Shown here: positions 1-42,066 of the stretch, one piece after another | Layout: each line of letters starts with the position of its first letter | How positions within the stretch are numbered: the stretch's first letter is position 1 | Source: Artocarpus heterophyllus | Lineage: Eukaryota > Streptophyta > Magnoliopsida > Rosales > Moraceae | Reading direction: 5' to 3' | DNA: 64,000 nucleotides | NCBI GenBank assembly: GCA_025403435.1 | Contig: JAJQZP010000440.1 | Coordinates: 124,001 to 188,000, forward strand | Made by a program: the position numbers and the translations under genes | Notes under the pieces: generated by a model | What the model saw: the letters and a program-made list of their open reading frames with translations, nothing else | Told to the model about the DNA's origin: nothing | Database searches by the model: none

Positions 1-3000
1 GAAGACTTGAGACCATCAAACCCGAGGTCATGTACCTCACATTGAGGAGGTCAAACTTTAACTTTACTTGTGTACCTCACATCTAGGAGGTCACCACTTT
101 AACTTTACTTTCAGTACATCACAATAAGAAGGCTGGTACGACACTTTTTTTTATTATTTTTACTCTTACATTCTTTTGTAACTTGGTGAGCATATCAAAT
201 GCAATCACATTATATGTAAACACATTTGCAAATCATAATTATTCTCTTTAAAACTTATTGCATAACAAATGCAACATAAAACTAATTACTTAAACTGTAA
301 AACATTATGCATTAACAAAATGCAAAACATACTTTAAACATAAATTTTGCAAATATATTGCAAACTTTTACTTGATCTTTCAAAACTTTATGCACATCAA
401 ATACAACCATGCTTTAACATAATAGTTGCAAACAAATTGCAAATCTTGATTTAAACTGTAAAACTTTTTGTATAACAAACGCAAACATACTTTTAAAAAT
501 AATTTGTATAATAATTGCAAACACATTTGCAAACATATATATATATATAAACATTTGAAAATTATTTATTTCATGCTGTAGGTGAGGTTTGAAACTTACT
601 TGGATTGCTCTTTAGCGTTTCCTATTCCATTCCTTTTCCTTCCATTAGTCGGTTCTGTGTCCTGATCATACGACACCCGACTAATGAGTTAACTTTCTCT
701 TTATCAATCCACCTGATTGGTAATAAAACTTTAAACATCTAGCATTTATTTCCTCTTAACTTAACTTGATACCCTATCGATTTATCCCCCTCTTTACTTT
801 GTACTTCGTTGCTTTTAACTTTGTAACCCATCAGATTACCTTACCTTTCACTCTAGTTCCATAACCCATCAAGTTATTATTCTTTTGACTTGGCTTTGTA
901 TGCAACCTATCAAGTTATATTTTTCTTTACTTGAACGGCCCTTATTAAATTTCTTGTCTCATGTGACAGTTTTGTTACTTAACGTATTATGGAATATTTT
1001 CTGTCTAAGAGCATTTTGCTAGTTTAGAGTGTTCGACTCCGTTTTAACCGTTTTCTTACAAATGACGATTTTACCCTTAACGGGTTTTTCGTCTATTCCG
1101 TAACTTAATAAAACTCATTGCTTAACTTTACCATTCCATTACCTACATAATATAAAAAAATCCCCACCAAGGAATGTTTCCCAACATCGGGCGTTTCGGG
1201 TTCGTTTTGACCATTTTCATAAAATGACAATTTTGCCCCTAATGTTTTTTTTTTCATTATTTCCTTAACTAAACTTTAAATCCTTTAAAAACATAATCCC
1301 TGTGGTTACTTGCTGCCCACAAAAATGTAGGAACCTAACGTTCTTTGGTGAAAAATCTAGGTTTTACATAATTTTATGGTTTTGATCCGAAATACAAAAA
1401 TATTTATATTTTTGCCACCGGTACCAAAAACAATCATTTTATACCAAAATGTTCAGTTTTTTGCAAGGAACAAAACTTATAAAAGTACCATGGTCAAATT
1501 CAATACATTCCATAATGTTTCCATTTCTTGAATTTTTGTGCTTAAAATTTTGTAAATTTCGTAACTCCTAAACGGAGTCGAATTTTGGAAAACTACTTAT
1601 GACATTTTAGCATTTTCGATGTGTTCTACAACTTTTATGTTTTAACTTTCTTGAAATTCTAACGTTTATGGGGACTTTTTGGTTGATTTTCAAATATACA
1701 AATAATACATTTTTCTTTGTAATTTAGTTCATTTTGAAATTTCACCAAAACCCTTACTTTCTTCTTTCCATCATCATCACCATCAATATATAGCATAAAA
1801 CAATCATGCCTTGACATCCATCTTTCATACCATAGTCCAAATCATTTTATTAAACACTTTGCATACATAAAAACATAAACTTTAACTTGATTTTAAAGAC
1901 TAGGATTTAGAATTTTTACCAAGAATTCTCCAATCTTTTAATCCTCTAATTGTGCAATTAAACTTGCTTAGATTCCTTTGTCATAAACTATGACAAAAAT
2001 CCATTAAAACCCAACAATAACTTTGAAAAAAAATCACTAAAACCCGAAAAAAAGTTTGAAAATTTACTTTCAAAGTTGCAAAACTTTGCACTTAAACATT
2101 GGAGCTTGCTTTAATCATGATTTGGAGGCTTAGAAATCATCAAAATTTGAGAGAGGATGGCCTTAGGGAGGGATGGTTTTGGAGAGCCAAAATGGAGCAT
2201 TTTTTTTCTTCATTCCTTCCTTCTTTCCTTTCTTTCTTTCTTTTCTTTCCTTTTCTTTCCTATTTCACGTTTCTTTCTTCTTCTTTTTCCCCACCATGGA
2301 GACCAACATTTTGGTCTCTTTCCTCATAAAACAAATGATATATATATATATATATATATATAACTTGATTTTTAAATTAAATTTAATGACTCATCACCAT
2401 GAGTCATCACTTATCAACATTTGTGATTAAAAAAGGTTAGACAATTTTGTATGGTGGGATTAGGCCACATCAAGATGTGTGGTGGCCCAATTAAATTTAG
2501 CAAGGTGTCCCCATTTTTTTTTACACAGTATAAATTTATACTGACTATATTTTTTATACTGTTGGCATTCCTTTCTATACTGTTCATGAGGTCCCACAAT
2601 CTCCCATACTTACTTACATAAATCACATAATGTAATTCTAATATTATCCAATTTTGTACAGTCTAAATTTATATTGACAATATTTTTCTTATACTGTCGT
2701 TACATTCTCTATATTGTTACAACATTTCTCATTCATCCATATTCTCTAAACAGTATTATTCCTGTGTTGCTTTAACGTAAACATCTAATTTTTGTACTGC
2801 TTAACTTTAAACAGTCAAATTCTTACATCGTATTACTTTTACAGTCAAATTTTTACACTATAGTACTCTATCAGTGTACTTTCTTACACTATATTATTCT
2901 AATACTGTATAATTTTTTATATTATTATATAGTATTTTTCCTTAAACTGTATTTTTGTCATAGTACAATCTTAATTTATTGCATTTTTACTATACTTAAA

Positions 3001-3823: not shown

Positions 3824-4690
3824 GGCTCATTTGGTAGTATTTTTATTTTTGGTTTTGGTTTTGGAAAACTTTGAAAATGAAAATATTTTGGAAAATGAGC
3901 TGGGCCTGTTTTGTAAATTGTGTTTGGTTGATACGTTTTGTCATTTTTAAGAACAGCTGAGAAAAATAAATTGTGCTTTATGTATGTGTTTTTGAAAACA
4001 CAAATTTAATTAAAAAAGCTAAATATTAATATAATAATAATAATTGTTATTATTTAGTTAAACGAAGAGGAATTCCTCTTCTTCCTCCTTTACTGTGGTG
4101 AGGCAAGCGCCGACGCCAGCGATTGTGCAAGCTACAGCGACTACGTCAATGTCGACTGACCCAACCACACCCCTTGACAATAGCAGATTGATGGTGCTCT
4201 CGCATCGACGGCCACTCCGAAAGCTTCCCTTCCATTGACAACCACTCTCGCAGAGATCAATGGCGCCACCAATAGAGATCGACACAACTTTCGATCCGAC
4301 AAAAATGGCCACTCCACGAGCTTCCCTCTTATCACGAATAGGCCGTTGGGTTGTGGTGGGGGCACTCCGATGAGGTTGGGCTCCGGAGATAGAGGAGGTG
4401 ACTGTTGCAGTTGGGCGGCACCAAGACTTGCCTGTAGAAGGAGGGTGGCTTGGTTTGCTGGGTGCTGCCAACTAGGTTCGCTAGTGTAGCTGGGATGGCA
4501 GCAAGTTCACCGGTGAGGGCTAGTTGTGGGTCTTAGAGAAATATTGAGGGAGGGAGTGCGAGAGAGTGAAGAGAAAATAAAGCGAAAACAACTTTTTTTT
4601 GTTTTCATTTTTGGGGCTTTTGGGGGAGTTTTTAGAAATGTTTTTGCTTTATGTTTTGTCTAAAATTTAACCAAACAAGTTATTGTTTTC
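3824..4690. mobile_element. Left part of a possible non-autonomous DNA transposon (split by the LTR element)
   Basis: The left edge (GGCTCATTTGGTAG) resembles the inverted right edge at 12960-12971 (GGGGCTGTTTGGTT). Both flanks consist of TTTTG/GAAAATG-rich sequence that reads as one continuous stretch once the LTR element and its TTTTC duplication are removed. A GC-richer core lies at 4075-4500, unlike the surroundings, and may be a captured fragment. No transposase and no firm target duplication were found; the terminal match is only about 9 of 12. Confidence 0.3.
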
Positions 4691-6665
4691 TGTGACACCC
4701 GTTATTCTCCTAACGGGTATTGAGGTAATTAAATTAATTTTTAATGTATAAAAAAAAATTGCTTCATTTAAATTTATTTTATAATATTTATTTTTATCTA
4801 TTTTTAAATTTTCTAAAATTCTCCTATATTTATTTAGTATGATTACTAAAAAGCCTTAGAACTTCTAATAAATCTCAAAAATGTCATATTGGCATTATAT
4901 GTGTTAAAGTCTTTAGATGAGACATAAGGATATCTTTTCCAACTACTCTTGACCCTCATTTTCTTTATTTCCTCCGTGACATGCTTCAACATGTCTCCTC
5001 TATAATTGTTTCTATCACTTCTCTTCAAAGACTTCATCTTTTCTTCCTTTCTCTTCCACGGTTCCCACACTCTTCTTCTCATTTCTTTGCTGAAGCAAAA
5101 TACTTAGAGAACTTCTTCAAGGCAGCCATAAAAATCAGCCACCATCACCTCCATTTGAGCAAGAATTTCAGTCATACCGAAGTAAAGGAACCTGTTTTGA
5201 AAACCATTTCAAGCTTCCAACTAACCATAATCCGAGGTTAGAATCTTATGAACAAATTTAGTCTTTCATTTATAAATTTTCTTTTATACTAAAGGATTAT
5301 TCAAATTTGCGTTCTTAAACCTAAGTATATGTTTGTTGCTATTTTGGAGCATATGTATGAAGTCTAAGTGTATATGCCCTAGACAGAAAATTTATATTGT
5401 TAAACTTTATAATACCTCTATGGGCAGTGGTTATTTCTTGAAATTCTAAGATTAAATTAAAATAAATTTTATGAATGTAGTTGTATGTTGTGCTTTAGTT
5501 TTAATTGTCCTTATGCACGCCTTAGGATCAAGGGAGTATGGAGCTAACGTTAATTGATTCCAGGATTAAGAGACTGTTGATAAGCTTAAAAGGTAGGGAT
5601 TCTATTACTCATCTTTTGTGAGGTTTTTATAGAATTAAAATTGATTGTTTTGCCGCAATATATATATATCTATGTTGAACTGATATTATATGTGTATCAC
5701 ATATGAAACTATGACATGGACTCGTCTTGTATTGTACGGCGAGGAACATAATGAATTGACACATGTTATAAATTGAGAAGCATGGTTAGGAAAACTAACT
5801 CTATTGATAATGATTCAATATAGAGAAATTGTGAGACATGAAGAGGGCGACGGTTACGTCCTTGGGCATGAATACCCTAAAAGGTAAAGTAGGGGGAAGG
5901 CGATGACGCTTCCTTGGGTTGAAAGTCCCAGAACACACTGTACAGGAATCGATTTGGTGAGGACTCGGGGCTTGATGTCCCCTCACCGGAACACCCTTGG
6001 AATGTTTATAGGGTGATCAAGTGCGCCCATTTGGGTCTCGATGAGTTGAGTGATACTCTATTTAACATGGATACCTAGGAACAATGATGATTGGTAATAT
6101 TTGCATAAATGTGTAATTATGACACTTGGTAATGATTAACTACGGTATCCATAAGATGTGATCATAATAAACCTCATAATCTGGAATATGATGTAACTTA
6201 CTAACCATGCAGGTTTTAATGTGGTAATGATAAAAACCTAAAGGTGAGTAATGGCTTTCTCTACTGAGCATAGTGTTGCTCATTCCCTTATGTTTATATC
6301 TTTTCAGGACTCACTAAGTGTGAGGTGGCTACGAGAAATATAGTTGAGGAAGTGATGTAGCTATATTACATTGGGACTGCTTCAATTGTTGAGAATGTTC
6401 TTCATGATAATGTAAGCATCAATTGTTACTTTCTGTGACTGTATTACAATGTGTTGAGGGTTAAAATGATGATGACAACAGTTTATATTATTAAATTTAA
6501 GGTGCTACATTAAAACTGTGGTTTATTTATCGTTTATATTTTTATTTTTGAGTTGAGAGTTTTCATTTAAGTCCCGGGCAAATTTTATTTTTAAGGTTTT
6601 ACTTTTATTATTTATTTTTATTTTATCTCATTAAAAACTGTTAACCCCCATATAGGGGCGTTACA
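4691..6665 (+). repeat. 5' LTR of the LOG-carrying element
   Basis: 1975 bp, TG...CA ends. It matches the 3' LTR throughout by eye; the only difference I found is one A in the run after AATGTAT (nine here, eight in the 3' LTR), and the lengths 1975 and 1974 agree with that. Small frames inside it (4846-5082, 4981-5241, 5801-5986) recur identically in the 3' copy and have no family resemblance, so I do not call them genes. Confidence 0.93.
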
Positions 6666-6672
6666 GAATTTT

Positions 6673-6685
6673 TGGTATCAGAGCC
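6673..6685 (+). other. tRNA-iMet primer-binding site
   Basis: TGGTATCAGAGCC lies seven bases after the 5' LTR end. This is the complement of the 3' end of plant initiator methionine tRNA and is the standard minus-strand priming site of many plant LTR elements. Confidence 0.9.
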
Positions 6686-8154
6686 TAAGTTCGGTTAACC
6701 TAGGGAGTGTAGCACCACTTTAAAAAAATATATTTTTGAGATGGTTTTGAAGCTGAATTTTCATTGTCATCATCAAAATGAACCTTCACATTGATTTATA
6801 CAGTCTAGAAGGATGTAACATGGAAAGGCCATAGAATGAAAATATCAATAGTTATATGAGTACAATAATTATATAGAAGGAAAGTATTAATAGTTATAAG
6901 GGAATGATAATTATATGGAATGAGTTTATAAGTAGAATGCTTATGAGAGATTCGTATAATATTTGGACCTATAAGCATATCTAATTCGTATAAACGATGA
7001 GAAATTTGTATAGATACGAGGATTTAAGAGCCTTTTGTCTCGTGAAAAACAATAAGAAATATAAGGCTTGACTTATTGATTTTAAAGTTTGACATAGATA
7101 TGCCAAATTTTTCGTAATTGATTCAAACCTAAGTAATGATTATGTGTGGATTCGATGGAGCACATAAGTGTCAATGTCTTTTCTTAAAAGTTCTATTTAT
7201 TTGAGGAATATGATATAAGTTGGGAATCATGGTATTGAATCATGAGAGAGATAAATGTTAGACTTTTGGTCTGTTGAGACTGTGTAAAGTCTAGAATGCA
7301 TGAATCTCAAAATTGGAATATTTTGTTACGTACATTGTATTTAAGTGTATCAGTGAATCTTTTGGTTACCTAAGGTTTTGTTATATGAGGAAATTATATA
7401 TTGTATAAGTAGAATTGTGGAGATTGTAGATGTTCCTAAGTAGTAACATCTAGTGTCTTTGTTCGTTGATATGGTCTACGTTGAAAAACGTAAATCGTAT
7501 TGATTTCAAGGTTAGTCGCATTCTAAACCCTTGGTAGTAATGATGATGAATCCATTGATAGATGTTGAGTATTAGGAATAACATATGGGTGTATGCATTG
7601 TTCAATAAGGTTTTGATTAAAACAAAATTATTTGAGTTGCTGGAAGATTGTGTTGTTATGAAATGATTTTAAATATCATTCAGGAAGATCCTTGTTGTCG
7701 TTAAATTAGATTTGTTGTTTATAGTCAACTTTATCTATAGTGGGCTTTGAATTGGGTTTGAGATTTATACAAATTGGTTTTCAATTTTATGTTTGTTATT
7801 TAACTCGTTCCAAATGTGTTAAGGCCTGAAACAACTTGACCATTTTCAACTAAGAACATTTGGGCCTAGTTCAAATCTTAAATCAGTTTGATTCACACTG
7901 TCTCTCCCACGTGATTTCTATACGTGTCATATACAGTGGTTTAATCATTGTTTACAAATACGTTTACTGTGCATAGGAGCTTATTTCTCTGAGTTCACTT
8001 TTTCTCTCTTAATTTGTTATTTTCTCTCTAAATCGCAAATCCTCTTCTTTTTCATTAAAAATTCTTCTTTTCCTAAAAAAGAAGAAGGAATTCTAGGATT
8101 CTGCAATTTACTATCTTAATTTTTCCTTTCTATTTACTCTTCTTTCATCTCATC
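6686..8154 (+). other. Non-coding 5' leader of the retroelement interior
   Basis: About 1.5 kb of AT-rich sequence between the primer site and the first ORF. I see no gag-like frame, zinc knuckle or other coding remnant. The last 170 bases are pyrimidine-rich (repeated TTTTCTCTCT) and lead to an ATG in good context (CATCATGGAC). Confidence 0.6.
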
Positions 8155-8676
8155 ATGGACCCAAAGTACCAACACCTGAGAAAGTATTTCCCATCACTCT
8201 CCCAAAAGATTCTCAGAAAGAAATACAAGGCTAGAATTACTCGGTTGTGGATTCTTATGCGTTTTGGTATCCCTTGTGATGTGAGAATGTTAATAGAGGG
8301 GAAAATCCGTCCGAGTGACTTTAGTCAAGATGTCGGTTTACCAGGAACGGGTACCAGTCGTAGTGCAATGAAAAGAAGAGCTCGTGCCATCGTGGTCGCT
8401 TGTAACAAATGTGGAAGACAAAATTGTAACGGTAAATGTACTTCACCTGGTTATATGTCTACGAATAGAGAGGATAAAATAAGGTTTTGTAGGAATGGAC
8501 TTTCAAAGGAGAACTTGGATAGTATCCATCCTCCTCTCCACGGTCACCCTAGTGGATATGTTCAAGGAGCTATTTTTAAACTCTGGCCTAAATTTTATAC
8601 AGAAAGACAACGCCTCAGGAATATGGTATTTCTAGATCCTGTTTGCCAAGCCATAAGAAAACTGGATGGGGAATAA
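8155..8676 (+). CDS. Small basic Cys-rich protein, resembling plant-virus nucleic-acid-binding proteins
   Basis: This 173-aa intact ORF is the first of two cargo genes inside the LTR element. The N-terminal 37 residues are basic (LRKKYKAR). A Gly/Ser-rich turn at 61-70 leads into the arginine-rich arm AMKRRARA (71-78), then four cysteines in C-x2-C-x4-C-x3-C (83, 86, 91, 95), then DKIRF (107-111) and NGLS (114-117). The order G-x-G-x-S, basic arm, Cys cluster, then K-[IL]-R-F is what I recall for the 3'-proximal nucleic-acid-binding proteins of Betaflexiviridae (carla-, viti- and related viruses), some of which suppress RNA silencing. An alternative is a much-altered gag nucleocapsid knuckle, since C-x2-C-x4-C-x3-C is close to CCHC. 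The ATG at 8155 has G at +4. Family assignment is inference; that the ORF is intact is seen directly. Confidence 0.6.
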   Translation: MDPKYQHLRKYFPSLSQKILRKKYKARITRLWILMRFGIPCDVRMLIEGKIRPSDFSQDVGLPGTGTSRSAMKRRARAIVVACNKCGRQNCNGKCTSPGYMSTNREDKIRFCRNGLSKENLDSIHPPLHGHPSGYVQGAIFKLWPKFYTERQRLRNMVFLDPVCQAIRKLDGE

Positions 8677-9321
8677 GTCATCGCTCTATAAAGGTTATTT
8701 AGTCTTTACTTATTTGAAGCAGTTTTAGCTGATGTTCAACAGTTTATGTTTTTCTTTTACTCAGAATATTTGCTTTTGTGTTTGAAATAATTGTGATTAT
8801 TAGATTGATACAGTAAGTGTTAATATCTTATTTAATTTATGATTTTCTTAAATATATATATATAATAAAATATATTATCTTATCAGACACGTTACATACG
8901 GTACAGTAATATGTTTGAATTTTGAAAAACTTATCCAGATATTTTAAGATTTGTGTCTCAAATTTCAAAAGTTCTACAGTATTTGTCGTTTATATTAAAT
9001 TTCTAGACTTGGTGTATATTTGTCAAAAAGTCTACAGTTGTGTCATGAGGGTCTTCTGTCGAATTGTTCTCAATTGTCAAAAGTTATACAATTAGAGTCT
9101 AATCTTTTTCAAAAAGTGAATCAGATTTTCTGTAAACTATCAATCACCTTATCTTACTTTCTTATCCGCACAAGATTTTGTTTAAATCTTTGGATTACCT
9201 TTTCATTACCTACTCGTCTATCTCTTTAGCCCTTTTTGTATATTTCTCATCTTTAAAAACTTATGTAGAACCCGAAGTCTAAGTGGAGCAGACATTAAGC
9301 AACCACTTCTATAAACCAAAT
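8677..9321 (+). other. AT-rich spacer between the two cargo ORFs
   Basis: 645 bases with no convincing coding frame; an ATG-less frame at 9020-9229 is not supported by composition or similarity. It contains a TATATATA run at 8854-8864 and several T-rich stretches. It could hold an internal promoter or splice signals for the second ORF, but none is identifiable by eye. Confidence 0.5.
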
Positions 9322-9972
9322 ATGTCTACCTCCCAGTCCACGAAGAAAATAAAGAATGTCTGTGTCTTTTGTGGTTCCAGCCTTGGAAAAGATAAAGCTT
9401 ATTTAGAAACTGCAAATCACTTAGGGCAAGTCCTAGCACACAAGAAGATTAACATAATCTATGGGGGTGGTAGTATAAAAATGATGGTAAATATGGCACT
9501 AGCAGCTAGGTCTAGCGACGCTACTGATGTAAGAATTTGGCCTCATATTCCAGTTGAAGGAAACCTTTGTAAGGAAGCCATAGGTAAGGGAGAAGGAGTC
9601 AGGAGTATCCCTAAAAATTTTAAAGACATAATCTATAATTCTGATGCTTTTATAGCATTACCTGGTGGTCTAGGTACTCTTGAGGAAATATTTATAGTTG
9701 CTTGTGGGCAATTGTTGGGCTTTTATTCCAAACCTTTGGGACTGCTGAACGTAAAGGGTTTTTATGACGGTCTTTTGAAATTTCTAGATTACGCTGTGGA
9801 AGAAAACATCACTACAGAATCGGAGAGACAAATCTTTGTTACTGCTTCAACAGCTGAGGAATTGATAGATAAAATGCAAATCATACATCCAGAATCCGAC
9901 ACTGCAACATCCAAGCTTGAATGGGAAAGGGAAAGCCGGGAGCGGCCAATTGATTTGAATCTCCATCTGTAA
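9322..9972 (+). CDS. LOG-like protein (cytokinin riboside 5'-monophosphate phosphoribohydrolase family), retroelement cargo
   Basis: LOG enzymes release active cytokinin bases from nucleotide precursors in the cytosol and nucleus. This 216-aa ORF has the family fold signature: CVFCGSS at 14-20, YGGGS at 47-51, and an intact PGGLGTLEE at 114-122, followed by KPLGLLNVKGFYDGLL. Length matches plant LOGs (about 210-220). I start at the ATG at 9322; the frame runs on upstream to 9283 without another ATG. Plant LOG genes normally have several introns; this copy has none, so it was probably captured through RNA. Two departures matter. The usual GLMG after GGGS reads KMMV, and the segment where LOGs have MH-x-RK reads IPKNFK, removing a residue known to be needed for catalysis. 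The C-terminus ends DLNLHL, an LxLxL pattern. It may therefore be inactive, altered or regulatory. Confidence 0.9.
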   Translation: MSTSQSTKKIKNVCVFCGSSLGKDKAYLETANHLGQVLAHKKINIIYGGGSIKMMVNMALAARSSDATDVRIWPHIPVEGNLCKEAIGKGEGVRSIPKNFKDIIYNSDAFIALPGGLGTLEEIFIVACGQLLGFYSKPLGLLNVKGFYDGLLKFLDYAVEENITTESERQIFVTASTAEELIDKMQIIHPESDTATSKLEWERESRERPIDLNLHL

Positions 9973-10928
9973 TCTTTTTGTTTTATCTTTGGCATGTAGG
10001 CATGTGTGTCCGTATTTCGTGTGTTACGAATAACCGTTTGCCTTGTATTCTGTGTTTTTTTGTGGTACGTCGTTGTTAAATCTTTTAGATTCATTGAGCC
10101 TAATGCCGGGATGGCTGGATACGGAGTACTTGATGCTCTCGAAACGCATCCTTCTTAAGGTCCGATCTTTTATTTATCGATGTTTTTGTATTCTATAAGC
10201 ATGCATGATATGGATAGCTGGTATACGGAGTGCCTTGTACTCTCGAAACGTATCCGTATTATGTTTGTAATGTGTAATATTCTGTTAATATTATGTGGAA
10301 GTACCAGAGTCAGTTATGGGGATATTCCATATGAAATATGAGTATATTATTTGGATTGAATGTTTGTGTCATGAGGATAGCTGTTTAATGAAAAATATGC
10401 CGGGTATGTTTGCAACTCTGAGATTCCGTTTAATATCTCTATGAGTAAGTTTAATGTATAGTTTTGAATAGAAGTGTTTGTGATATATGTTTTATGATTA
10501 TGTTCTAGTTTATTAGTTGAGGTATGAAATCAAATATATTTGACTTTTCCTTACTCAAAAAGGAAAAGGAACCTAAAGATGAAGTATATAAAATTTCTCT
10601 GGCAATCTCCTTAAATGTGATTGTAAATCACAGTCCATGGACAATGAAGGACTGGAATCATGGTATGGTCAATATGTATGCCTGATCAGATTCTTAGACT
10701 ATTATACGGTGTTATAAGTTGAAACTTGTCAGAAATACTCTTATTGAGGGATTTAGGAGTAAGATTTATTATGCAAGTAAATAAGTGGAAATACGATAAC
10801 TTAAATTTGGAGGACAAACAACATTAACGGTTTAGACTCAGAATTGGAATCATAGTGGAATCATAATTTTTACTAGTATTGCTAGAATTGAAATTTCGAG
10901 GACGAAATTTCTTTAAGGGGGGTAGAGC
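9973..10928 (+). other. 3' non-coding interior of the LOG element with polypurine tract
   Basis: Holds two related hairpin-forming repeats (listed separately), then AT-rich sequence, and ends with GAATTTCGAGGACGAAATTT, AAGGGGGG (polypurine tract, about 10914-10922) and TAGAGC immediately before the 3' LTR. The FEDEFRG-like coding remnant of pol that normally precedes this signature in chromoviruses was not found. Confidence 0.6.
10111..10260 (+). repeat. Two imperfect direct repeats, each able to form a stem-loop
   Basis: Unit 1 (10111-10151) and unit 2 (10212-10260) share the pattern ATACG-GAGT-loop-CTC-TCGAAA-CG(C/T)AT. Within unit 2 ATACG pairs with CGTAT and GAGT with ACTC; in unit 1 the same stems form with one A-C mismatch, as if the structure rather than sequence was kept. 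They lie 140-290 bases after the LOG stop codon. The role is unknown; packaging, stability or 3'-end signals are possible. Confidence 0.5.
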
Positions 10929-12902
10929 TGTGACACCCGTTATTCTCCTAACGGGTATTGAGGTAATTAAATTAATTTTTAATGTATAAAAAAAATTGCT
11001 TCATTTAAATTTATTTTATAATATTTATTTTTATCTATTTTTAAATTTTCTAAAATTCTCCTATATTTATTTAGTATGATTACTAAAAAGCCTTAGAACT
11101 TCTAATAAATCTCAAAAATGTCATATTGGCATTATATGTGTTAAAGTCTTTAGATGAGACATAAGGATATCTTTTCCAACTACTCTTGACCCTCATTTTC
11201 TTTATTTCCTCCGTGACATGCTTCAACATGTCTCCTCTATAATTGTTTCTATCACTTCTCTTCAAAGACTTCATCTTTTCTTCCTTTCTCTTCCACGGTT
11301 CCCACACTCTTCTTCTCATTTCTTTGCTGAAGCAAAATACTTAGAGAACTTCTTCAAGGCAGCCATAAAAATCAGCCACCATCACCTCCATTTGAGCAAG
11401 AATTTCAGTCATACCGAAGTAAAGGAACCTGTTTTGAAAACCATTTCAAGCTTCCAACTAACCATAATCCGAGGTTAGAATCTTATGAACAAATTTAGTC
11501 TTTCATTTATAAATTTTCTTTTATACTAAAGGATTATTCAAATTTGCGTTCTTAAACCTAAGTATATGTTTGTTGCTATTTTGGAGCATATGTATGAAGT
11601 CTAAGTGTATATGCCCTAGACAGAAAATTTATATTGTTAAACTTTATAATACCTCTATGGGCAGTGGTTATTTCTTGAAATTCTAAGATTAAATTAAAAT
11701 AAATTTTATGAATGTAGTTGTATGTTGTGCTTTAGTTTTAATTGTCCTTATGCACGCCTTAGGATCAAGGGAGTATGGAGCTAACGTTAATTGATTCCAG
11801 GATTAAGAGACTGTTGATAAGCTTAAAAGGTAGGGATTCTATTACTCATCTTTTGTGAGGTTTTTATAGAATTAAAATTGATTGTTTTGCCGCAATATAT
11901 ATATATCTATGTTGAACTGATATTATATGTGTATCACATATGAAACTATGACATGGACTCGTCTTGTATTGTACGGCGAGGAACATAATGAATTGACACA
12001 TGTTATAAATTGAGAAGCATGGTTAGGAAAACTAACTCTATTGATAATGATTCAATATAGAGAAATTGTGAGACATGAAGAGGGCGACGGTTACGTCCTT
12101 GGGCATGAATACCCTAAAAGGTAAAGTAGGGGGAAGGCGATGACGCTTCCTTGGGTTGAAAGTCCCAGAACACACTGTACAGGAATCGATTTGGTGAGGA
12201 CTCGGGGCTTGATGTCCCCTCACCGGAACACCCTTGGAATGTTTATAGGGTGATCAAGTGCGCCCATTTGGGTCTCGATGAGTTGAGTGATACTCTATTT
12301 AACATGGATACCTAGGAACAATGATGATTGGTAATATTTGCATAAATGTGTAATTATGACACTTGGTAATGATTAACTACGGTATCCATAAGATGTGATC
12401 ATAATAAACCTCATAATCTGGAATATGATGTAACTTACTAACCATGCAGGTTTTAATGTGGTAATGATAAAAACCTAAAGGTGAGTAATGGCTTTCTCTA
12501 CTGAGCATAGTGTTGCTCATTCCCTTATGTTTATATCTTTTCAGGACTCACTAAGTGTGAGGTGGCTACGAGAAATATAGTTGAGGAAGTGATGTAGCTA
12601 TATTACATTGGGACTGCTTCAATTGTTGAGAATGTTCTTCATGATAATGTAAGCATCAATTGTTACTTTCTGTGACTGTATTACAATGTGTTGAGGGTTA
12701 AAATGATGATGACAACAGTTTATATTATTAAATTTAAGGTGCTACATTAAAACTGTGGTTTATTTATCGTTTATATTTTTATTTTTGAGTTGAGAGTTTT
12801 CATTTAAGTCCCGGGCAAATTTTATTTTTAAGGTTTTACTTTTATTATTTATTTTTATTTTATCTCATTAAAAACTGTTAACCCCCATATAGGGGCGTTA
12901 CA
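10929..12902 (+). repeat. 3' LTR of the LOG-carrying element
   Basis: 1974 bp, almost identical to the 5' LTR, followed by the TTTTC target duplication at 12903-12907. Confidence 0.93.
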
Positions 12903-12971
12903 TTTTCATTTTTGTTTTTGTGTTTTTGAAAATGAGAAAAACCTTCTTAGAAACAAAACCAAACAGCCCCA
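12903..12971. mobile_element. Right end of the possible DNA transposon hit by the LTR element
   Basis: Continues the interrupted sequence left at 4690 and ends AAACCAAACAGCCCC, the partner of the weak inverted terminus at 3824. See the left-part entry for the doubts. Confidence 0.3.
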
Positions 12972-13572
12972 AAAGGATGCATTCAATATAAATTTACTGT
13001 GTTCATAAAACAAATAAGATCCCAACGAAACATGTGCAAAGAATAATACTTAGATTGCACTAATGTAAATATATTATTGGAAAATAAATAACACGTATAA
13101 TTTTCTTTTAAAACAGAGAATTATGAACATGCATTAGATGGGGCGTATTTCTCTAATTAGTTTTGATCTTGATTCAGATAAGAAGCTATCCTTTTTTTTC
13201 CCCTCAAACTCCATTGGCAATCATTTTTTTCTCTCTTTCCTATTAAATGGTGGGCTTTACAGATACGCCACCTTTTGGGAGTGTGGACTGAAATGTGCCA
13301 CATAGAAAAAAACTCTTTGAAAAATACCACAAACTAATTTTTTTTTTTATAATTTTACTCCTGTATTAATTTTTATGAGTGGTATATAGTATAAATTTGT
13401 TCGTAAAAAGCAAAAGTCAATCCACTCTTCAATAAGGTGATAGTAGGCATAAGTATCTTTATTAGATGCAAGATTCCCTAAGGCTCATGTTCATAGGAAA
13501 ACGTTATCCCTTGATGACATGTTGTTTTCTCCATGAGGAAAACAACATGTTCCTTTACCACTCTAGATCTAT

Positions 13573-20200: not shown

Positions 20201-23200
20201 TATCTATTTTTTTTTTGCGTTTTTGTCTTGGGTTCATACATTGATGCATCAACATATTGTCCCTCTTTTTCAGGCTTGCCCAAAATTGATTGAGAGATTC
20301 AAGGAGAGGGAGGAAAATGTCAAGGCAAGTCAAAATGATCTAAGTGCCTATCTCTTTATTACTTATTATGAGGTCAGTCATCTGATATTATTTTTCTGCA
20401 GATGGATGTATTTAATACATTTATTGAACTATTGCGTCAAACTGGAAATGTCACAAAAGGGCAGATTGACATTAATGAATTAAGGCAAGTTTTTATGTCG
20501 TTTATCTTCAAACAAAAATGACTTAATCGTGGTTTTTCCTTGTTTGCTCCTTTCAATAGTGCATGGCTTTTGTTTTTGGTGAAACCAAGCTTTGTATAAC
20601 GCACGTGTATCGTCTAAAGATTTAGAGAGCCAAATATAAGGCCACTCTTTGGGCATCTCTGTCTAAAGATTTTCAGCGGGTTTTCCTTCACTGATTTTCT
20701 GAGGGATTGGGTGGCAGTTTTGATAGATTAGTTTGTCCTACGATCTGTTTAGTTTTTTTTTTTTTATCTTGGATGTTGTATTCTCTAGATCTCTAGTTCT
20801 TTTTGAGGACTCCTTGTCCTTCCTCTATGTACATTTCATCTCTTTGTTTTCAATGAAAAGTTTTTTTCCTTATCAAAAAAAAAAAAAAAAAAAAGGTATG
20901 ATGTACGTGTATCATTTATTTAGTATTTTGTTGTCTTTCTTTCTACTGTTTCTCGTGCAGGACATTGAGGGATAACATCATCAATAAATTCTTTCAAACT
21001 GATTAATTCTTTTCATGTTTCTTATCCATCTATCTTGTATCTTTGTTTACTTAGAAACACTATCCAGCCTTCAAAAGTTGGTCATTCTGTTGAATGACCC
21101 ACATATGTTCTCTCTTTCTCCCCTCCTCTCTTTCATCTCTCCAAGTGTAGTGGTATTGCTTGTAAATTTGTCACATGCTGTGGACTTTGTTGGCACTTTA
21201 AAACATGGTGTTTTTTGTTGCATAGTTTATAGAAACTGGTATCAATTCTTTAAATTCATTTACGTTGCAGTCCAAGATGGTTGCTGAAGCAAGAAGTACC
21301 AAAGATTATTAAGTCGATAAACAGGCAACTACGTGAGAAGTCTATTAAGACCAAGGTAAGAATTGCTCATGTCCACTTTGGTAGATTTGTTTCAGACGTG
21401 TTTTGAAGTATTATGTTTATCCATTTGCAGGTTGGTGCCTTTTCTGTTTTGAAAGAACTCGTTGTTGTCTTGCCAGATTGCCTGGCAGACCACATCGGAT
21501 CCCTCATCCCAGGAATTGAAAAGGCATTAAATGTAAGTAAAACCGTTAAAGCTGCATCTTGAAGCTGCAATATTCTATATGATGTTGGTATTTTTCCATC
21601 ACCCCTTAATTATATTCTTGTGATGCTGTGCAGGACAAATCTTCTACCTCAAATTTGAAGATAGAAGCTCTTATCTTCACAAGATTGGTATTGGCTTCAC
21701 ATTCTCCATCTGTTTTCCATCCTTATGTGAAGGTAAACATCAGTTCGCTTTCTTAGTACATAAAGGGACATAATTAGGAGAACTTGAAAGCTGGGATATA
21801 AATACACTTTAAACAAAAAACTGAAATACTGAATGTTGGGCTTTTGAAATAAGTGGCAATGTTGTAGCCTTATACTGTTAAACACATGTAAAGATAGAAG
21901 ATTTGGAATGCCATGATTTGGTATATATTACGTAAACATTAAACTTCCGTTAGATTTTCAATTTTCTGCTGTTGTCATTTGGAGTAATTTTTAAACTAAA
22001 CATTTGAAATTAATTTGGTCTCTATGTATCATCATAAAGCTTTCAAGCAAAAAAAAGGAAAAAAAAAGAGAAAAAGAAAGGAAAAGAAGAGAAAAGAAAA
22101 ACGCTGCTTAACCCTTTTTAACATTTTAATATATATATATATGTCTATTTGTAGTTAATGTTGAACTTAGATAACTAATTGTGCTACATATAAACCATTG
22201 ACATCTTGTAGCATTTTTTCTAGTCTTGTTAAAAAAAATATGGGAGAAGTGTCTATTGTTGTAGTTTAAGTTTATCAGCTCAATTTTGTATGATCAAAAC
22301 CTCAAATGGATTTTTGCAACCTTTGGGTCAATTAATTAAACAATAGTCAATGTTGAGGGATAGACTGAGTTTGGACTTCAAATAGGTCAAGGGCTTGAAA
22401 TTATAAGTTTCTTTTAACTTTATCTGCTTATGTTATCATCTTTCATGTTTGGCTTCTTGAGTAATTGGATGTTATTATGATTCAAGAAATTCGTATAATC
22501 TTGTATTTTGTGTTTAGCTCAAAGTCATTTTATGTTGACAATTGTACAGGCTCTTTCTAGTCCCGTTTTATCTGCTGTAGGTGAGCGTTATTACAAAGTC
22601 ACAGCCGAGGCATTGAGAGTTTGTGGGGAACTTGTCCGTGTTGTTCGCCCTAGCATTGAAGTGAGTTTCCAGGCATTATTTAACTTTGTAACCTTGTCAG
22701 TCCATGGTCTAATTGTTGAAGAACGTTGTGATGTAGGGGACGGGTTTTGATTTTAAGCCGTATGTGCATCCAATTTATAGTGCCATAATGTCACGCTTGA
22801 CAAATCAAGATCAAGATCAGGTCAGTAGTGTTTCTGTTTTCTGTTAAAGCTTTGTACAGGGTTTGCTGTGGCTCACATTTTTCTTATCCAGGAGGTCAAG
22901 GAGTGTGCTATCACTTGCATGGGACTTGTTGTCTCAACATTTGGTGATAACCTCAAAGCAGAATTGCCTGCATGTCTCCCTGTACTTGTTGATCGCATGG
23001 GGAATGAGATCACCAGACTAACAGCTGTAAAGGTGAGTTGCAGCTATATAGATGTGTTGGCTTGAATTTATGCTGCTCTTATGCATTTGTGTTATTCTTA
23101 GAAAAGACATCATAATTGTGTTGTGCATTTATGTGTGTACGAGAGTCAAGTGTATCAGCTGTCGCTTCATTTTAGGTTTCCCTCTTTGTATCGGCTGTCG

Positions 23201-25400
23201 ACTTCTCATCATTGCCCGATTGTTAACTTGAGTGGGTCTTCTTCTTGGGAGGGATGTTTTGATTGTTCCTGGGATTTTAAATTCTCTAGAAACTTAACAG
23301 TCAGGGAATTAGATGAAGTTGCAGTGTTACTTTCTGTTTTGGAGTCTGTTAACATCAGGGGGGTTTTTTTGGATACGAGGGTGTGGGTGCTACAAAATTC
23401 AGGAATTTTTTCAGTAAAAACCTTCTTTTCCTTGCTGATTGATAATTCTTCTTTAATTCCTTTTCCGTTCTATGACCGGATTTGGAAATCCCGTGTTCCT
23501 TTCGAAGTGCAATTTTTTTTTTGGCTTCTTGTGCTTGATAAGTTAAACACTAATGATTTGATGCAGCAAAAGAATCCAAATATGATGTCGTCTCCTAACT
23601 GGTGTATTCTTTGTAAGAAAAATGATGAATTGGTCAATCATCTTTTCTTACATTGCCCCTTCACTTATAGCATTGGGTGCAGGTTAATAAGGGAGCTGGG
23701 ATTTTCATGGGTCACTCCTAGCAGCTGTAAAGAATTGTGTTTATTCTCTGCCTCTTGGCTTTAATAGAAGGGCTAAGTTGTTGTGGAGGACTGCTGTTTT
23801 GGGGGTTTTTTGAGGAGTGTGGCTGGAGAGAAATAGGAGAATTTTTTATAATGTTGAGGTTTATACTGACAAAATTTGGGATAAGGTTAGATATTGGGAA
23901 GCTTTATGGATTCATCAAGGTAGTGAATTTGTAAAGTTCTATTTTCTGACCTTGTTAGAAGTTGGACCCTGTTTATAAGGTTCTGCTTCTGATTTTTCTG
24001 AGAGAACCTCTCCCTCTTTGCTTTGTACGTATCCTTATTAATATAAAGTTTCTTTTTTTTTTTTTTTTTTTCTTTTAAAGAGTCAAGTGTGTAGTTCATG
24101 TAGTTATTATTCAGGGTGCTGAGATGAGTGCCTGGTTGTTTTTTTCTCATCAAGCGTGATTTATTTATTTGATTGTTGTTTTCTAGTTTTCTTTTTCATT
24201 AAGTTATTATTCAGGGTGCTGAGATGAGTGCCTGGTTTTTTTTTTTCTCATCAAGCGTGATTTATTTATTTGATTGTTGTTTTCTAGTTTTCTTTTTCAT
24301 TAGAATGGAGATTTTTTTTGTTTATTTATTTATTTTTTAACTTTTGATCATTGTTTAAGTCCTTGAGGGTTTATGTCTAGGCATTTGCTGTTATTGCCGC
24401 TTCTCCCCTGCAAATTGATCTCTCATGTGTTTTGGAGCAAGTCATAACAGAATTGACTGCATTCTTAAGAAAGGTATGAAAAATTTGGTACGCATTCTCT
24501 TCAATTGTTATTCCAATTTGGAACATGGACTCAACTTTGCTTCTCTATGAACTAGGCAAACCGGGTTTTAAGGCAGGCAACACTGGGGACCCTTAATTGC
24601 CTAATTGTTGCTTATGGTGACAAAATTGGCTCATCTGCTTATGAAGTTATTATTATTGAACTTTCTACTTTGATAAGGTTTATACTTTACCTTTTTTCCT
24701 AGCTTTTGAATTTCCCTTACTTTGATTGTTTTTATGGTAACGTGTGACTATTTCCAATGTTACCTTATACAAAACATAGTTCTTATTCATCATTGTTGTA
24801 TCAGTGATTCAGACTTGCACATGACGGCTCTTGCCTTGGAACTTTGCTGTACCTTGATGTCTGATAACAGATCAAGCTCAGTTATCGGTTTGGCTGTTAG
24901 AAACAAAGTTCTTCCTCAAGCACTAACATTAATCAAAAGCTCATTGCTTCAGGGGCAAGCTCTATCGGTATTTTTCTTCAAATTGTTGAATCTTGATCCA
25001 GATATTTTGCATGTTTGAGGACCTTAATTTTTGGATACTGCAGGCGTTGCAAAACTTCTTTGCTGCTTTGGTCTATTCTGCAAACACGAGTTCTGATGCC
25101 TTGTTGGATTCTCTTCTTTCAAGTGCTAAACCGTCTCCCCAAGCAGGTGGTGTTGCAAAACAAGCTTTGTACTCAATAGCACAATGTGTGGCTGTTCTTT
25201 GCCTTGCTGCGGGTGATCAGAAGTATTCATCTACAGTGAAAATGCTTACTGAAATCCTCAAAGATGACGGCTGTACCAATTCAGTAAGCCTAGCCACCCC
25301 TCCATATAAATAATATTTAAATAAAAGCAATTCCTAATGATGATTTTTTTTTTTTTTGCTTTGTAAGAAACCCCTAATAGATGGTAAAAATTTAAGTAAA

Positions 25401-31059: not shown

Positions 31060-31613
31060 TGTAGGCGATGGATCTACAATTAAATATTAAAAATTTTAGA
31101 TTGGGTTATTTAAGAAATTTGAGCTCTTAAATCACCATTAAATGGACCTGTTAGCGTAAGTCAACGTGCTAGATTGGAGTGAAATCAATAAAATAACGCT
31201 GAAACAAGACTAACAGATGATATTGATAGTGGTTTATTCTGTTAATGAAGAGCTGCGTCCATTGTAATTCACTAAAATGTTTCGGTTACAAATTACATGA
31301 GAGCAAAAAGAGATGAAAAAGCAAGTAGGCAGAGTTTTCGTATCTGTATATATCTCATATAATGAGACATTCATCCCCTTACATAGAGGGTGAAGGAGAA
31401 ACGTGACTCCCAACCGTCTGGCGGAGTGGGACAGCACATTGTAAATAACTGCAAGAGTGGGACACGTGTTGATTGATGATAGACTGCATGAATCATGCCT
31501 CTCCCATGTTTCAGTCCATGTCTAGATGTGTTATATCTGTCAGTTCGTGCTAGTAACCGTCAACTTGAGACGATCGATCCGGTTGAACCAAAACGAAACG
31601 AGAACATAATATT
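31060..31613. repeat. Left part of a solo LTR interrupted by the Tat element
   Basis: Begins TGTAGGCGATGG and matches the pattern of the Tat element LTR (TCTACAATTAAAT, TTATTTAAGAAATTTGAGC, GTTAATGAAGAGCTGCGTCCA) at clear divergence. It continues after the inserted element at 42803-42978. The whole is bounded by a perfect 5-bp duplication ATAAT at 31055-31059 and 42979-42983, showing it is a solo LTR of a related family. Confidence 0.85.
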
Positions 31614-32329
31614 TGTAGACGGTGAATCTACAATCAAATGCTAGAATTCTTGATTGAGTTATTTAGGAATTTGGGCCCTCAAATCACCGTTAATCTATTT
31701 GCTAGATTAAAGCGAAATAAACAAAATAAAACTACGGTAAGGATGACACAAGATTTATAGTGGTTTACTCTGTTAATGAAGAGCTACATCCACTGTATTT
31801 TTCTATGATTTCTTTGAGTACAAATTACAGTGTAAAGAAATGAGAAAACCAAATGGTAGGGTCTCGGTATCTGATTTTTATGTGTGTGTCCTGTACATCA
31901 TAGTGGTCTTCCTCTTATATAGAAGATGAGAAAGGATAGTGGCTCTCAACTATCTGGCGAAGTGGGATAGAGCACCATAAGTAACCGCAATAGTGGGACA
32001 CGTGTCGATCGGTGATAGACTACAAGAATCATGCCTCCCCCACGTTTCGATCGATGACTAGACGTGCTATAACTGCTTGTTCGTGCAAATAACTGTCAGT
32101 TCGAGACGATCGATCTGGTCGAACGAAGACATGGAAACGAATGCAAACTATGTTTAACAAGAGAAAAATGACTCAAACCACGTAATACAATCGAATGAAG
32201 TGAACAATGTGAACCGTCAATTGTATTGGGCTCCAGTCAGTAGATTTTAGTCAATCCATTTGTTTAGTATCAACGTTGGGCCACTTAGGCCTGCTAGCAA
32301 TTTGGACTTCACTAAATTGCACCCCAACA
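31614..32329 (-). repeat. 3' LTR of the Tat element
   Basis: 716 bp. Read on the minus strand it begins TGTTGGGGTG at 32329 and ends TCTACA at 31614. It lacks the block GAATGAATCTGTAAACCT present in the 5' LTR. Confidence 0.88.
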
Positions 32330-32987
32330 GATAGCCCCCCACTCCTTAGTATATGTAATGGACTACAGGAGTGAATGAAGATCATGCCCAAACTCGACGG
32401 CTCATGTCTCTGACTGATATCCTGCACCCGTAACTAAATCATTACCTTCTCCTGGGAAATCACGATACTTAATTACCTGCAATATGTGTCATTAGCCAAT
32501 TGGCAGCTCCAGAAAACTACTGCAATGCTGACGCATGAGTCTGATTCGAAAAGACACCGCCTCGGTTCTTGAAAAGACGCGTAACCCTAGCCCTTGGATC
32601 AGATGGCTCTGAATCAATTTTAGTCGTTGATCTGGTACCCTCGGGTGGTATATAACTCACGTTTTTCTCTCACCTCTTTCATTTCATCTCTCTCTTCGAA
32701 CCTAAGGCAGATTTCCTCCAGTTTCTCTATGATTTTTAGGCAAGATTTTCTTTTCTCTCCTAATTTTCTTGTGATTTTCTTTCCGTAATCTTGTTTTTCT
32801 TCCAATTTCAAGCATTTTGATACCAAACACGCTTCATTTCTCGAGAAAATCAGTGACTGCTTGACTTATTTGGCTGTCGTGACCCTAGAATACCCAAGAA
32901 CAGTTAAAGCCTACAAAGTTTTAGGATTCTTTAGCTTTTGGATCTTCGAATCCCTAGTTTTCCTTTGGTAGTCCTGTTTCTGCAAAA

Positions 32988-35154
32988 ATGTCAAAGGCAG
33001 TTATCATTGATTCGAGCTCCAGCAGTGGTGAAGACCCCTAATCGAGTAGCGACGAAAGGGAAGTCGACGAAATGATTCGTCAACAAACCATGACCGAATC
33101 GAGCGTACGGATGACTGGAGCCGATAGTGGAGAGGCGACGAGTCAAAGAGTAGAACGAAACCAGCCAGCTGGTCCCTCAACAAGGATCGACAATATCGAA
33201 CAACTCGAAAGGAGGAAGTATATTTCTCAAACCAAAGGATTATCATTTTTCACCAAGAATCTAGAGTCTGTTCTGACAGAGGGGGACTTGTTGACAGCAA
33301 GATTGAAGTATGGAATACTAGCCTCAGTTTAAATACGATTACCTTATCTGGGGGAGCATGCAGATACACAAAACGACAATTGGTTTTGTGTGTACACAAA
33401 ATGGTTCGAACATGAACTTCGACTGCCAATTCTGTAATCATGATTAAGATCATTAGCCATTTTTACATTTCCATGACCCAACTCATGCCAAATGGGGTTT
33501 GATTACTTATAGCCCTTATGGTCTTAATAGATGAAGCTGGAATTCAGTTCGATATATTTGACTTCCTCAGGTGCTATTACCGATGTTGAATAGCAAAAAT
33601 TTAGGCTGTTTCTTTTTTGTATATAGGCAGTTGAAGCAGCTCATAACAGAGTTTGTAGACGCTGATAGGCACTAGGAGGAGCGATACTTTTTCATGTCGA
33701 TCAACCGCGACTCCTTTGAACTAAACACTCGATTTTCTTTTCCATTCGCTTTCTGTCGTATTGGTAAGTATCATTACTTTTTATATTTCGAGCAGTAATT
33801 CCATCTAATAAACAATCTGTTTCCTTGCATATTACGAATTGAATCACCCAGCTCCCATCGACGAAAGGTTCCAGGCGAGGTTGGAAGCATTACTAGCTTT
33901 AAACGAACAAACTTGGGTAGATATCTCATAACCCGATCGACTCCAGAGGTCTTTGATTTGGAAGCGATTTAAAGAAATCCCCACAGGTATTCCTATTCGA
34001 TTTTCGAAACAAGTTGATTGGGTCTTCGTATACCACGGTGCACTTCAGCGGCTGTACGGCCCATCAAAAAATATTACACCACTATCTAACGAAGACATTC
34101 ATCTCGCAGAAGTCGCATTGTCAACCATGAAGGTAACACTGCCCTTGGTAGAAGAGATGCGAAAGAAGAGGCATGCGGACAAAGCCGCAAAGAAAAAGAG
34201 AAGCGACAAGGGCGAACCATCAGTACAAGAAGTTACCCCTCTAGCCACTTCATCAGATCTTCCTCCACCGCCTCCTTTCGACATACAGCCCCCACCATAT
34301 AAGAAAAGAAAGGGCGTTGGAACTTCAACTTCGACTAGGGATGCAGAATAGAGTGTTCTTGAGAAGACCCTTGACATCCCAATAGATGTGAGCATCATGT
34401 AAGACAAGGAGGCGGCAGCAAAAGCGGCCATAAACTTTTACTTCGAAAAAGACGAGGAGCTTCTTGGTGGGAAACCCTTCACTTAGCTCTTCAACGAATC
34501 GGCCGTAGCATTGGGACAGGTAAATCTCAAGCATGTTAATCCTTTTGGCTTCGATAGCATCACACCTACTGAGATTCCATCATGCTGGGTCTTCTGCTTC
34601 ACAATCTGTTCGCAAACAAAGCTGCTCACAAATATGAGCAAGAGGTACTTAAATGTAAAAAGCTTAAAGAAGAGCTGAAGAAAATGAAAGCTGAGGGGGA
34701 CAACAAATAGAAGGAGCTTAATGATATGGCCGATACATTGAACAGGTCGAACAAGAAGGTACTAAGCTTGTCTAGTAGCCTTCGTCTTTCCAAAGAAAAA
34801 GTTGACGGCCTAAAGAATACTCTGACTGCAAGAGACAAGGATATCGAAGACATCAAGGAGTAGCTGTTGGAGGTCCATGGCACTTCTTCCTTCAAAGAGC
34901 GACTTGAGGCCTTGTTGGAATTCAAGTCTAGCCGACTGAGCGTCGAAATAATCGACGAAGAAATCAAAGACCTCCAGGAATTGTTATCGACAGATGACCA
35001 GAATGTCCAAGGCGAACTGGCCAGTCAAGAAGTCCTTAACGAGCCCTGTGTCCCTGAGCCTGATGCTTCGTTGATTCCAACAGATAAAGTCTCTGAACCT
35101 ACAATTGTCGAGTCAACTGAAGAAAATGTTCAATCAGCGAATGGAGAAGCTTGA
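32988..35154 (+). pseudogene. Antisense ORF (aORF) of the Tat element, decayed
   Basis: Opposite in strand to gag-pol. From the ATG at 32988, a Ser/Asp-rich N-terminus (SKAVIIDSSSSSGEDP) meets a stop, then the frame continues (33072-33330). Further open blocks are 33953-34351, with a Lys-rich and Pro-rich segment (ending KKRKGVGTSTSTRD), and 34626-35154, a Lys/Glu-rich probable coiled coil. In-frame stops at 33673-33675, 34708-34710 and 34861-34863 are all TAG before or after otherwise coding sequence. Intron-like junctions between blocks are possible. Antisense ORFs of unknown function are known in Tat/Ogre retrotransposons; this copy is not functional as it stands. Confidence 0.65.
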
Positions 35155-35569
35155 AAACAGTTTTTTTTTTTGTATCGAACGTTTTATTCCGACAAAATGG
35201 AAATTGAAATTCAACTTTTGAAGTCATCATTAGATTAGCAACGCTTTTATATCGTATGCACCGATTAACCTTAGTCAATCGAAAAGCAACAGATCAATAA
35301 AGTGATAAACGAAAGTATCCAATCCAAAAGGATTATCAAAGTTACATGGCTACAGGTAATGTTTTGATAAAAATCGATCGAACTGGCCTTGAGTCAAGAA
35401 AAACTTAGACCAAGAGATCGAATTATATAGGTCGGTTTTCTTGATCTTATGAACCCTGATTACTAAATAGTAAAAACATTTCGGATCGAGTTTATCAAAT
35501 TCAAACTATGATTACGGCAGCATCAGTTGTACTAATTGAACTTATCGAGTCCAAAATTTAGTCCTGAAT

Positions 35570-36075: not shown

Positions 36076-36299
36076 GAATTATATAGCATAGCTATGTTCC
36101 CTGAGGAAGGAATTTGTCAATATATTGGGGAAATAAAATTTGAATTAATAAAGCAGCTGCACTCGTTTATATCATATACGAGTTGCCTACGTACCCCATG
36201 TTTAGGGATCAAGCCAAACGTAGTTTAATTACACAAAGCAAAATGAATACTACGCATAGTACTTCCTCAAATAATTCACGTTTCAGCTCTTGGTAATGA

Positions 36300-42004: not shown

Positions 42005-42066
42005 TCGGATCCGAGTCTAAAGATCTTGGAGTTGATGACTTCAAAGCCCCACGGTGGGTGCCAAAC

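Follow-up and report, generated by a model that had tools for sequence, protein, structure and literature searches.

The window analyzed here is a stretch of 64,000 nucleotides from the 985 Mb genome of Artocarpus heterophyllus (positions 124,001-188,000 of contig JAJQZP010000440.1). At 4691-12902, it contains a complete long terminal repeat (LTR) element, which has no gag-pol of its own and is non-autonomous. The element carries two genes: ORF1, coding for a small, basic protein that contains a cysteine motif, and ORF2, coding for a protein with the LOG fold. On balance, and with moderate confidence, we favor the view that it represents a high-copy, recently active, helper-dependent LTR family, the only recognizable genes of which form a selected two-gene accessory module. 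As judged from sequence comparison, the same two genes are present in the same order in an unrelated LTR family, which has gag and protease and is older.

Anatomy, copy number and recent activity

The initial annotation had described an intact LTR element with two sense ORFs and without gag-pol. This description stands. The LTRs, the target-site duplication, the primer-binding site and the polypurine tract are all in place (Table 1), and a Pfam scan of the interior (six frames, stops as X, E up to 1) gave no match to gag, protease, reverse transcriptase (RT), RNase H or integrase. The two LTRs have no substitutions and show a single 1-bp difference, inside an A run. The interior is 4,263 bp long, and its coding content consists of ORF1 and ORF2, both on the sense strand. 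Their stop-to-stop frames (199 and 229 codons, respectively) exceed the longest frame (181 codons) seen when the interior was simulated 1,000 times with a first-order Markov model. The primer-binding site is of the initiator tRNA-Met type. The polypurine tract has a one-base change or gap, in or beside the tract, in 4 of 20 fetched copies (see below). An Rfam scan of 4500-13000 (E up to 1) gave no match, nor did IMG/VR scans with the ORF1 protein, the ORF2 protein and the junction of purine tract and LTR, or a GTDB scan with the same junction. An endogenous RNA virus was considered and dropped, as further virus genes are absent from the interior. Two imperfect copies of a stretch GGATACGGAGT...CTCTCGAAACG(C/T)ATCC were noticed by eye in the 3' internal region (10110-10256), which may form hairpins (Rfam: none).

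Table 1. Features of the LTR element and its target site, in window coordinates.
Feature	Position	Strand	Remarks
Target-site duplication, left copy	4686-4690	none	TTTTC
5' LTR	4691-6665	+	1975 bp, ends TG...CA
5' internal region	6666-8154	+	without Pfam domains (six-frame Pfam scan)
Primer-binding site	6673-6684	+	TGGTATCAGAGC; identical in 20/20 fetched copies
ORF1	8155-8676	+	173 aa
ORF2	9322-9972	+	216 aa, single uninterrupted frame, LOG fold
3' internal region	9973-10928	+	
Polypurine tract	10915-10922	+	AAGGGGGG
3' LTR	10929-12902	+	1974 bp
Target-site duplication, right copy	12903-12907	none	TTTTC

Genome-wide matches were ranked by identity to either ORF. In the ORF2-ranked list, the best 150 of 6,114 candidates all have 100% identity; in the ORF1-ranked list, the best 150 of 5,819 candidates all have at least 99% identity. 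None of these contains a stop. Only 15 elements are common to both sets of 150, and thus one or both ORFs are open, and nearly identical to those of the window, at no fewer than 285 distinct places in the source genome. A single copy, which the initial annotation had named as refuting its proposal, is therefore excluded, and a one-off capture was dropped on the basis of copy number. A Lincoln-Petersen estimate (150 x 150 / 15) gives about 1,500 copies; it is rough, assumes independence of the two lists and counts shared insertions twice if the assembly holds two haplotypes.

From the ORF2-ranked list, 20 copies were fetched, whole or nearly so, and all of them have both ORFs with LTR sequence on each side. 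Both LTRs are complete in 13 copies, with 0, 1, 2, 0, 0, 6, 0, 4, 2, 3, 1, 2 and 22 substitutions between them; where one LTR is cut (7 copies), the overlaps differ by 6, 0, 0, 1, 18, 0 and 13. Thus, 17 of the 20 copies have at most 6 substitutions. A matching target duplication was found in 11 of the 13 copies with complete LTRs (mismatch in L021 and L027). The median difference between copies in the noncoding interior is 2%. Because LTR pairs are near-identical while the copies differ by about 2%, most insertions are much younger than the split of their source copies, and several source lineages with intact ORFs were thus recently active together. Five of the fetched copies (L009, L011, L013, L023 and L026) have about 380 bp of other sequence near LTR position ~780, in both LTRs. 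Copy L019 sits inside an LTR of the same family, in opposite orientation and with the target duplication CCCTA.

A second LTR family and selection on both genes

A genome search with Arabidopsis LOG3 gave at least 150 scored single-frame LOG matches (45-52% identity). Those listed outscore ORF2 of the window (171-197 versus about 150 bits). Stops are present in 41 of the best 150 (counted by eye). Six loci (L066-L071) and a further 20 LOG copies were hand-picked, non-randomly, from these 150. All six loci, which were read with their flanks, have an ORF1-like sequence upstream of LOG, starting about 0.7-1.2 kb away. An ORF1-like match is also present in 18 of the 20 further copies. The best stretch contains a stop in 13 of these 18, as expected for old copies.

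The window's family has two old relatives among these loci, L070 and L071, with recognizable LTR pieces (amino acid identity to the window of 84 and 91% for ORF1 and of 67 and 68% for ORF2). The other four, L066-L069, belong to another LTR family. Two of these were read further out; their LTRs are about 2.1 kb long, have TGATGAG... ends and are 92% alike within the element. Both have gag upstream, and one also has a protease match. The primer site of this family is TGGCGCCGTTGC, which we take to be of the tRNA-Asp type. RT and integrase gave no Pfam match in the second-family element (forward frames; core stretch in one copy, L067). An RVT_2 (copia) match in L074 lies ahead of the 5' LTR and is part of a different element. 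There is no significant similarity between the LTRs of the second family and those of the window (best E 0.024). As the gag-protease family (L067, L069, L072-L075) apparently lacks RT and integrase, it may itself be helper-dependent.

Given the ranking of the genome lists, ORF1 was assessed only in copies picked by ORF2, and vice versa. The ratio of nonsynonymous to synonymous polymorphism (pN/pS) of ORF2 in ORF2-ranked copies (0.038) is biased and was not used. The ORF2-chosen copies have 20 synonymous and 16 nonsynonymous alleles in ORF1 (pN/pS 0.21, Fisher p 2e-6). The value is 0.12 for variants found in more than one copy and 0.32 for singletons. Only 1 of 21 sequences (window and 20 copies) has a stop in ORF1, and there is no gap block in the 522 columns of ORF1 versus 39 in 3,246 noncoding columns. 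Of the 20 copies chosen by ORF1, 18 have ORF2 without indel or stop; the other two, with a 1-bp indel, were left out of the codon count, which gave a pN/pS of 0.38 (p 0.002).

The corresponding ratio for divergence (dN/dS) was computed between the loci. For the window against L066-L069, it is roughly 0.13-0.15 for ORF1 (dS 2.3-2.5) and 0.26-0.29 for ORF2 (dS 1.3-1.5). L070 and L071 against L066-L069 give 0.19-0.23 for ORF1 and 0.10-0.14 for ORF2 (the latter in the 7 of 8 pairs with computable dS). The plain fact underlying these ratios is that amino acid identity between the families is still 50-59%. Within families, the values are 0.38 and 0.31 for the two ORFs of L070 versus L071, 0.30-0.36 for ORF1 of the window versus L070 and L071, and 0.27-0.62 for ORF2 in pairs within L066-L069, a rise that fits decay after insertion. 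Low dN/dS across the family split argues for long-term purifying selection, by which, on this evidence, both ORFs have been maintained. In this respect, the many copies, pN/pS and the between-family dN/dS bear out the initial annotation, which had proposed that a LOG-derived and a virus-like gene are kept open and, should other copies keep both, are probably selected as a pair.

The encoded proteins and other features of the window

The ORF2 protein matches the Pfam family Lysine_decarbox (E 9e-22) and has the LOG fold. Its PGGxGTxxE motif is kept as PGGLGTLEE, with G118S in one of 39 sequences (the window, the 20 fetched ORF2-ranked copies and the 18 others without indel). In all 39, the LOG active-site residues Met96, His97, Arg99 and Lys100 are replaced by Ile, Pro, Asn and Phe, respectively. 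The catalytic Arg is kept in all six relatives that were read (L066-L071). In two studied LOGs, alanine at Arg99 or its equivalent is reported to abolish activity completely or almost completely, and in one of these enzymes alanine at Lys had the same effect (PMC4979012, PMC5379747). With Asn at the catalytic position in every copy, it is unlikely that ORF2 of the window activates the hormone. Cytokinin activation by ORF2, as suggested by the initial annotation, is not supported for this copy in view of the four replaced residues.

In a tree, which holds only four prokaryote LOGs, the element LOGs form one clade beside the Arabidopsis LOGs, and the window's ORF2 has a longer branch than its relatives. 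Arabidopsis LOG3 scores 152 bits with ORF2 of the window (41% identity) and 191 bits with the LOG of L067 (52% identity). Among plasmid LOGs, the top scores are 127 bits (39.8% identity, 157 plasmid records) and 154 bits (47.1% identity, 163 plasmid records), respectively. A bacterial origin of ORF2 was thus rejected by score, the margin for the window being thin by identity alone; most likely, ORF2 descends from a plant LOG. The plasmid-borne LOG-type genes closest to both element LOGs are from plasmids of the Rhizobium/Agrobacterium group, several of them from plant hosts.

The ORF1 protein (20 kDa, pI 10.2, 34 K/R versus 13 D/E) has a basic patch (MKRRAR, residues 72-77), followed by the cysteine motif C83-x2-C86-x4-C91-x3-C95. 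In the second family, this motif is exact in L066, and L067 is short of one Cys; it is exact in 14 of 18 further ORF1-like sequences. Two viral Pfam families are concerned (PF05515/PF01623). Window ORF1 matches Viral_NABP with E 0.012 (16 bits, below the curated cut-off of 23) and Carla_C4 with E 0.14 (12.6 bits, below the curated cut-off of 20.9). The viral nucleic-acid-binding family is also matched by ORF1 of L067 (E 0.0026, 18.2 bits versus the cut-off of 23) and of L071 (E 0.036, below the cut-off). With an E of up to 1, ORF1 of the window and of L067 touches no Pfam family besides Viral_NABP and Carla_C4. A search of PDB sequences with ORF1 had a best E of 0.063. A single-sequence structure model (pLDDT 36.6) was set aside.

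The viral cysteine-rich proteins have a nuclear localization signal and a zinc finger, several of them suppress RNA silencing, and one induces hyperplasia as a transcription factor (PMC12172455). Like the proteins described for carla-, allexi- and mandariviruses, ORF1 is small; its basic patch and four cysteines may correspond to the localization-signal-like patch and the zinc-finger-like motif of these proteins (PMC12172455, PMC3689765). It differs from them by a sub-threshold similarity, another cysteine spacing and the lack of adjoining virus genes. The resemblance is weak and is better seen as a lead than as a demonstration. The role as silencing suppressor that the initial annotation had considered for ORF1 is conjectural, as it derives from this sub-threshold match. 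ORF1 probably binds nucleic acid.

Several other features were noticed in the window. Another LTR-like retroelement is at 31371-42978, with direct repeats within 31371-32329 and 42067-42978 that are 74-99% alike in pieces. It contains RT and RNase H pieces (37956-38975, minus strand) and a 160-bp tandem duplication (38492-38811). A fragment at 23102-23764 has a zinc-binding-in-RT domain (zf-RVT, E 2e-17) and is probably of LINE type. At 60192-60830 (minus strand), there is a leucine-rich-repeat fragment that resembles the resistance type (Pfam LRR_14, E 0.0017, below the cut-off).

Proposed explanation, alternatives and known systems

Both the ends of the LTRs and the sequence preceding the purine tract may resemble those of Tekay/Del chromoviruses. 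The Met-type primer site is shared with Tekay/Del, but also with copia, so that it is not diagnostic. Such sites are reported for copia lineages and for the majority of chromoviruses, but not for the Athila/Tat side, which excludes membership of the window element in Athila (PMC6317226). The helper is probably an autonomous chromovirus of the Tekay/Del type.

We propose the following scenario. ORF2 most likely goes back to a single captured plant LOG mRNA, and an autonomous element would provide gag, RT and integrase in trans. ORF1 may act on the element's own RNA, either as a shield from silencing or as a packaging aid, which would explain why an element that depends on functions in trans has a selected gene. 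Older members have kept Arg and Glu, and their LOG-like protein could still set free cytokinin or some other base and favor dividing cells. Having lost the catalytic Arg, the LOG protein of the window's family has probably become a nucleotide-binding, non-catalytic protein. It is tempting to go further and, quite tentatively, to view ORF1-LOG as a portable accessory module made of one captured LOG and a virus-like gene. This module would have spread between gag-protease and chromovirus-like families and been selected for RNA protection and an altered host nucleotide or hormone state, with LOG now acting as a non-catalytic effector in the bursting family.

It is very improbable that the pair is passive cargo, with both ORFs open merely through youth and few masters and with proteins that are useless to the element. 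The LTR pairs do point to a recent burst, so that openness after insertion proves nothing. Occasional damage fits in as well (an ORF1 stop in 1 of 20 ORF2-chosen copies and an ORF2 indel in 2 of 20 ORF1-chosen copies), as does the decay of old copies, with stops in 13 of 18 sampled ORF1-like matches. This reading is, however, largely refuted by a between-lineage dN/dS of 0.13-0.29 over dS >1.3, and also conflicts with a pN/pS of 0.21 for ORF1 and the lack of indels there as against 39 noncoding gap blocks. ORF1 might also be a stripped-down, nucleocapsid-like packaging protein of non-viral origin, which loads element RNA into helper particles and resembles viral proteins by convergence. It is small and basic, it has one four-cysteine motif that is present in both families, its viral matches are sub-threshold, and the window element has no gag. 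We nevertheless regard this as rather unlikely, because no Pfam families other than Viral_NABP and Carla_C4 are touched (window, L067) and because the older family keeps ORF1 despite its own gag, so that ORF1 is no simple gag replacement.

We also regard it as improbable that ORF2 is a still-active LOG-type hydrolase, which relies on a different catalytic residue and increases active cytokinin in cells expressing the element. The LOG fold and PGGLGTLEE are intact, the Arg position is kept in the six relatives, and there is some constraint on ORF2. This is outweighed by Asn and Phe at the equivalents of Arg99 and Lys100 in all 39 copies, by the longer branch of the window's ORF2 and by the reported loss of activity upon alanine substitution of Arg (in one enzyme also of Lys; PMC4979012, PMC5379747).

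Some results weigh against the favored view of a selected accessory module in a recently active, helper-dependent family. The viral-family match of ORF1 stays below threshold, and its spacing (C-x2-C-x4-C-x3-C) is unlike the C-x2-C-x9-C-x4-C given for the carlavirus cysteine-rich protein (PMC3689765). For ORF2, constraint on variants shared by several copies is no stronger than on singletons (pN/pS 0.40 versus 0.37, ORF1-chosen sample), and dN/dS of the window versus L070 and L071 is 0.43-0.51; ORF2 is thus under weaker constraint in the young family. For ORF1, dN/dS is 0.37-1.49 in pairs within L066-L069, as for decaying old copies, and dS between the families is near saturation, so that the exact ratios are rough. 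Three of the 20 fetched copies have older LTR pairs (18, 22 and 13 substitutions). The LOG matches listed are long and in a single frame, and 24 of the 26 sampled among them adjoin ORF1, so that no host LOG genes were obtained to compare with.

Selection would not be expected to maintain protein genes in an element that borrows its enzymes. A two-gene family that shares its genes with an unrelated LTR family is a concrete case of plant retrotransposon needs beyond gag and pol, candidates being silencing evasion, control of the host cell and packaging. Having members with and without the catalytic Arg, the LOG lineage is well suited to testing whether hormone chemistry is what counts.

The initial annotation knew of no described plant retroelement family with this gene pair. 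This can be upheld in part: searches of open-access PMC text gave no report of the ORF1-LOG pair, its sharing by two lineages or the loss of the catalytic residue, and the main text of PMC7264820 makes no mention of LOG, cytokinin, non-autonomous or Tekay. Similarity to LOGL4 was reportedly described by Steinbauerova et al. in 2011 for two Athila-like elements. For gypsy elements of Citrus and Populus, a domain of LOG type (YgdH) is already published (PMC9289625, citing Steinbauerova et al. 2011), which limits the claim. These are, like the window's element, LTR retrotransposons with a LOG-family domain, and our second family, which has a primer site of the tRNA-Asp type as well as gag and protease, probably belongs with them. 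The window's family differs by the Met-type primer site, the lack of gag-pol, the ORF1 partner (of which the passages of PMC9289625 on the Citrus and Populus elements make no mention) and the loss of the catalytic Arg.

Other LTR lineages are also known to carry additional genes. In Tekay chromoviruses of sunflower, maize and sorghum, a conserved additional ORF is found at the 5' side (PMC11728184), in sunflower in 500 of 523 group-2 elements. A role in silencing was suggested, as the maize and sorghum proteins weakly resemble a double-stranded RNA-binding protein structure; the sunflower protein is without such a feature. That ORF adjoins gag-pol, has no LOG domain, and the relevant parts of the report give no likeness to viral cysteine-rich proteins. 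Gypsy elements of Phalaenopsis with an AlkB RNA demethylase likewise keep a captured enzyme gene in an LTR lineage (PMC9289625). They are, however, 25 kb long, have a polyprotein and carry another enzyme, for which activity was shown in vitro. Host gene sequence inside an LTR element is also reported for maize Bs1 and for other LTR elements that transduce genes in maize, rice and sorghum, with selection on captured genes in rice and sorghum (PMC13317346). The Bs1 segments are described as being without full-length ORFs, whereas the family described here has two full ORFs, an estimated 1,500 copies or so, and a gene pair that occurs in two lineages.

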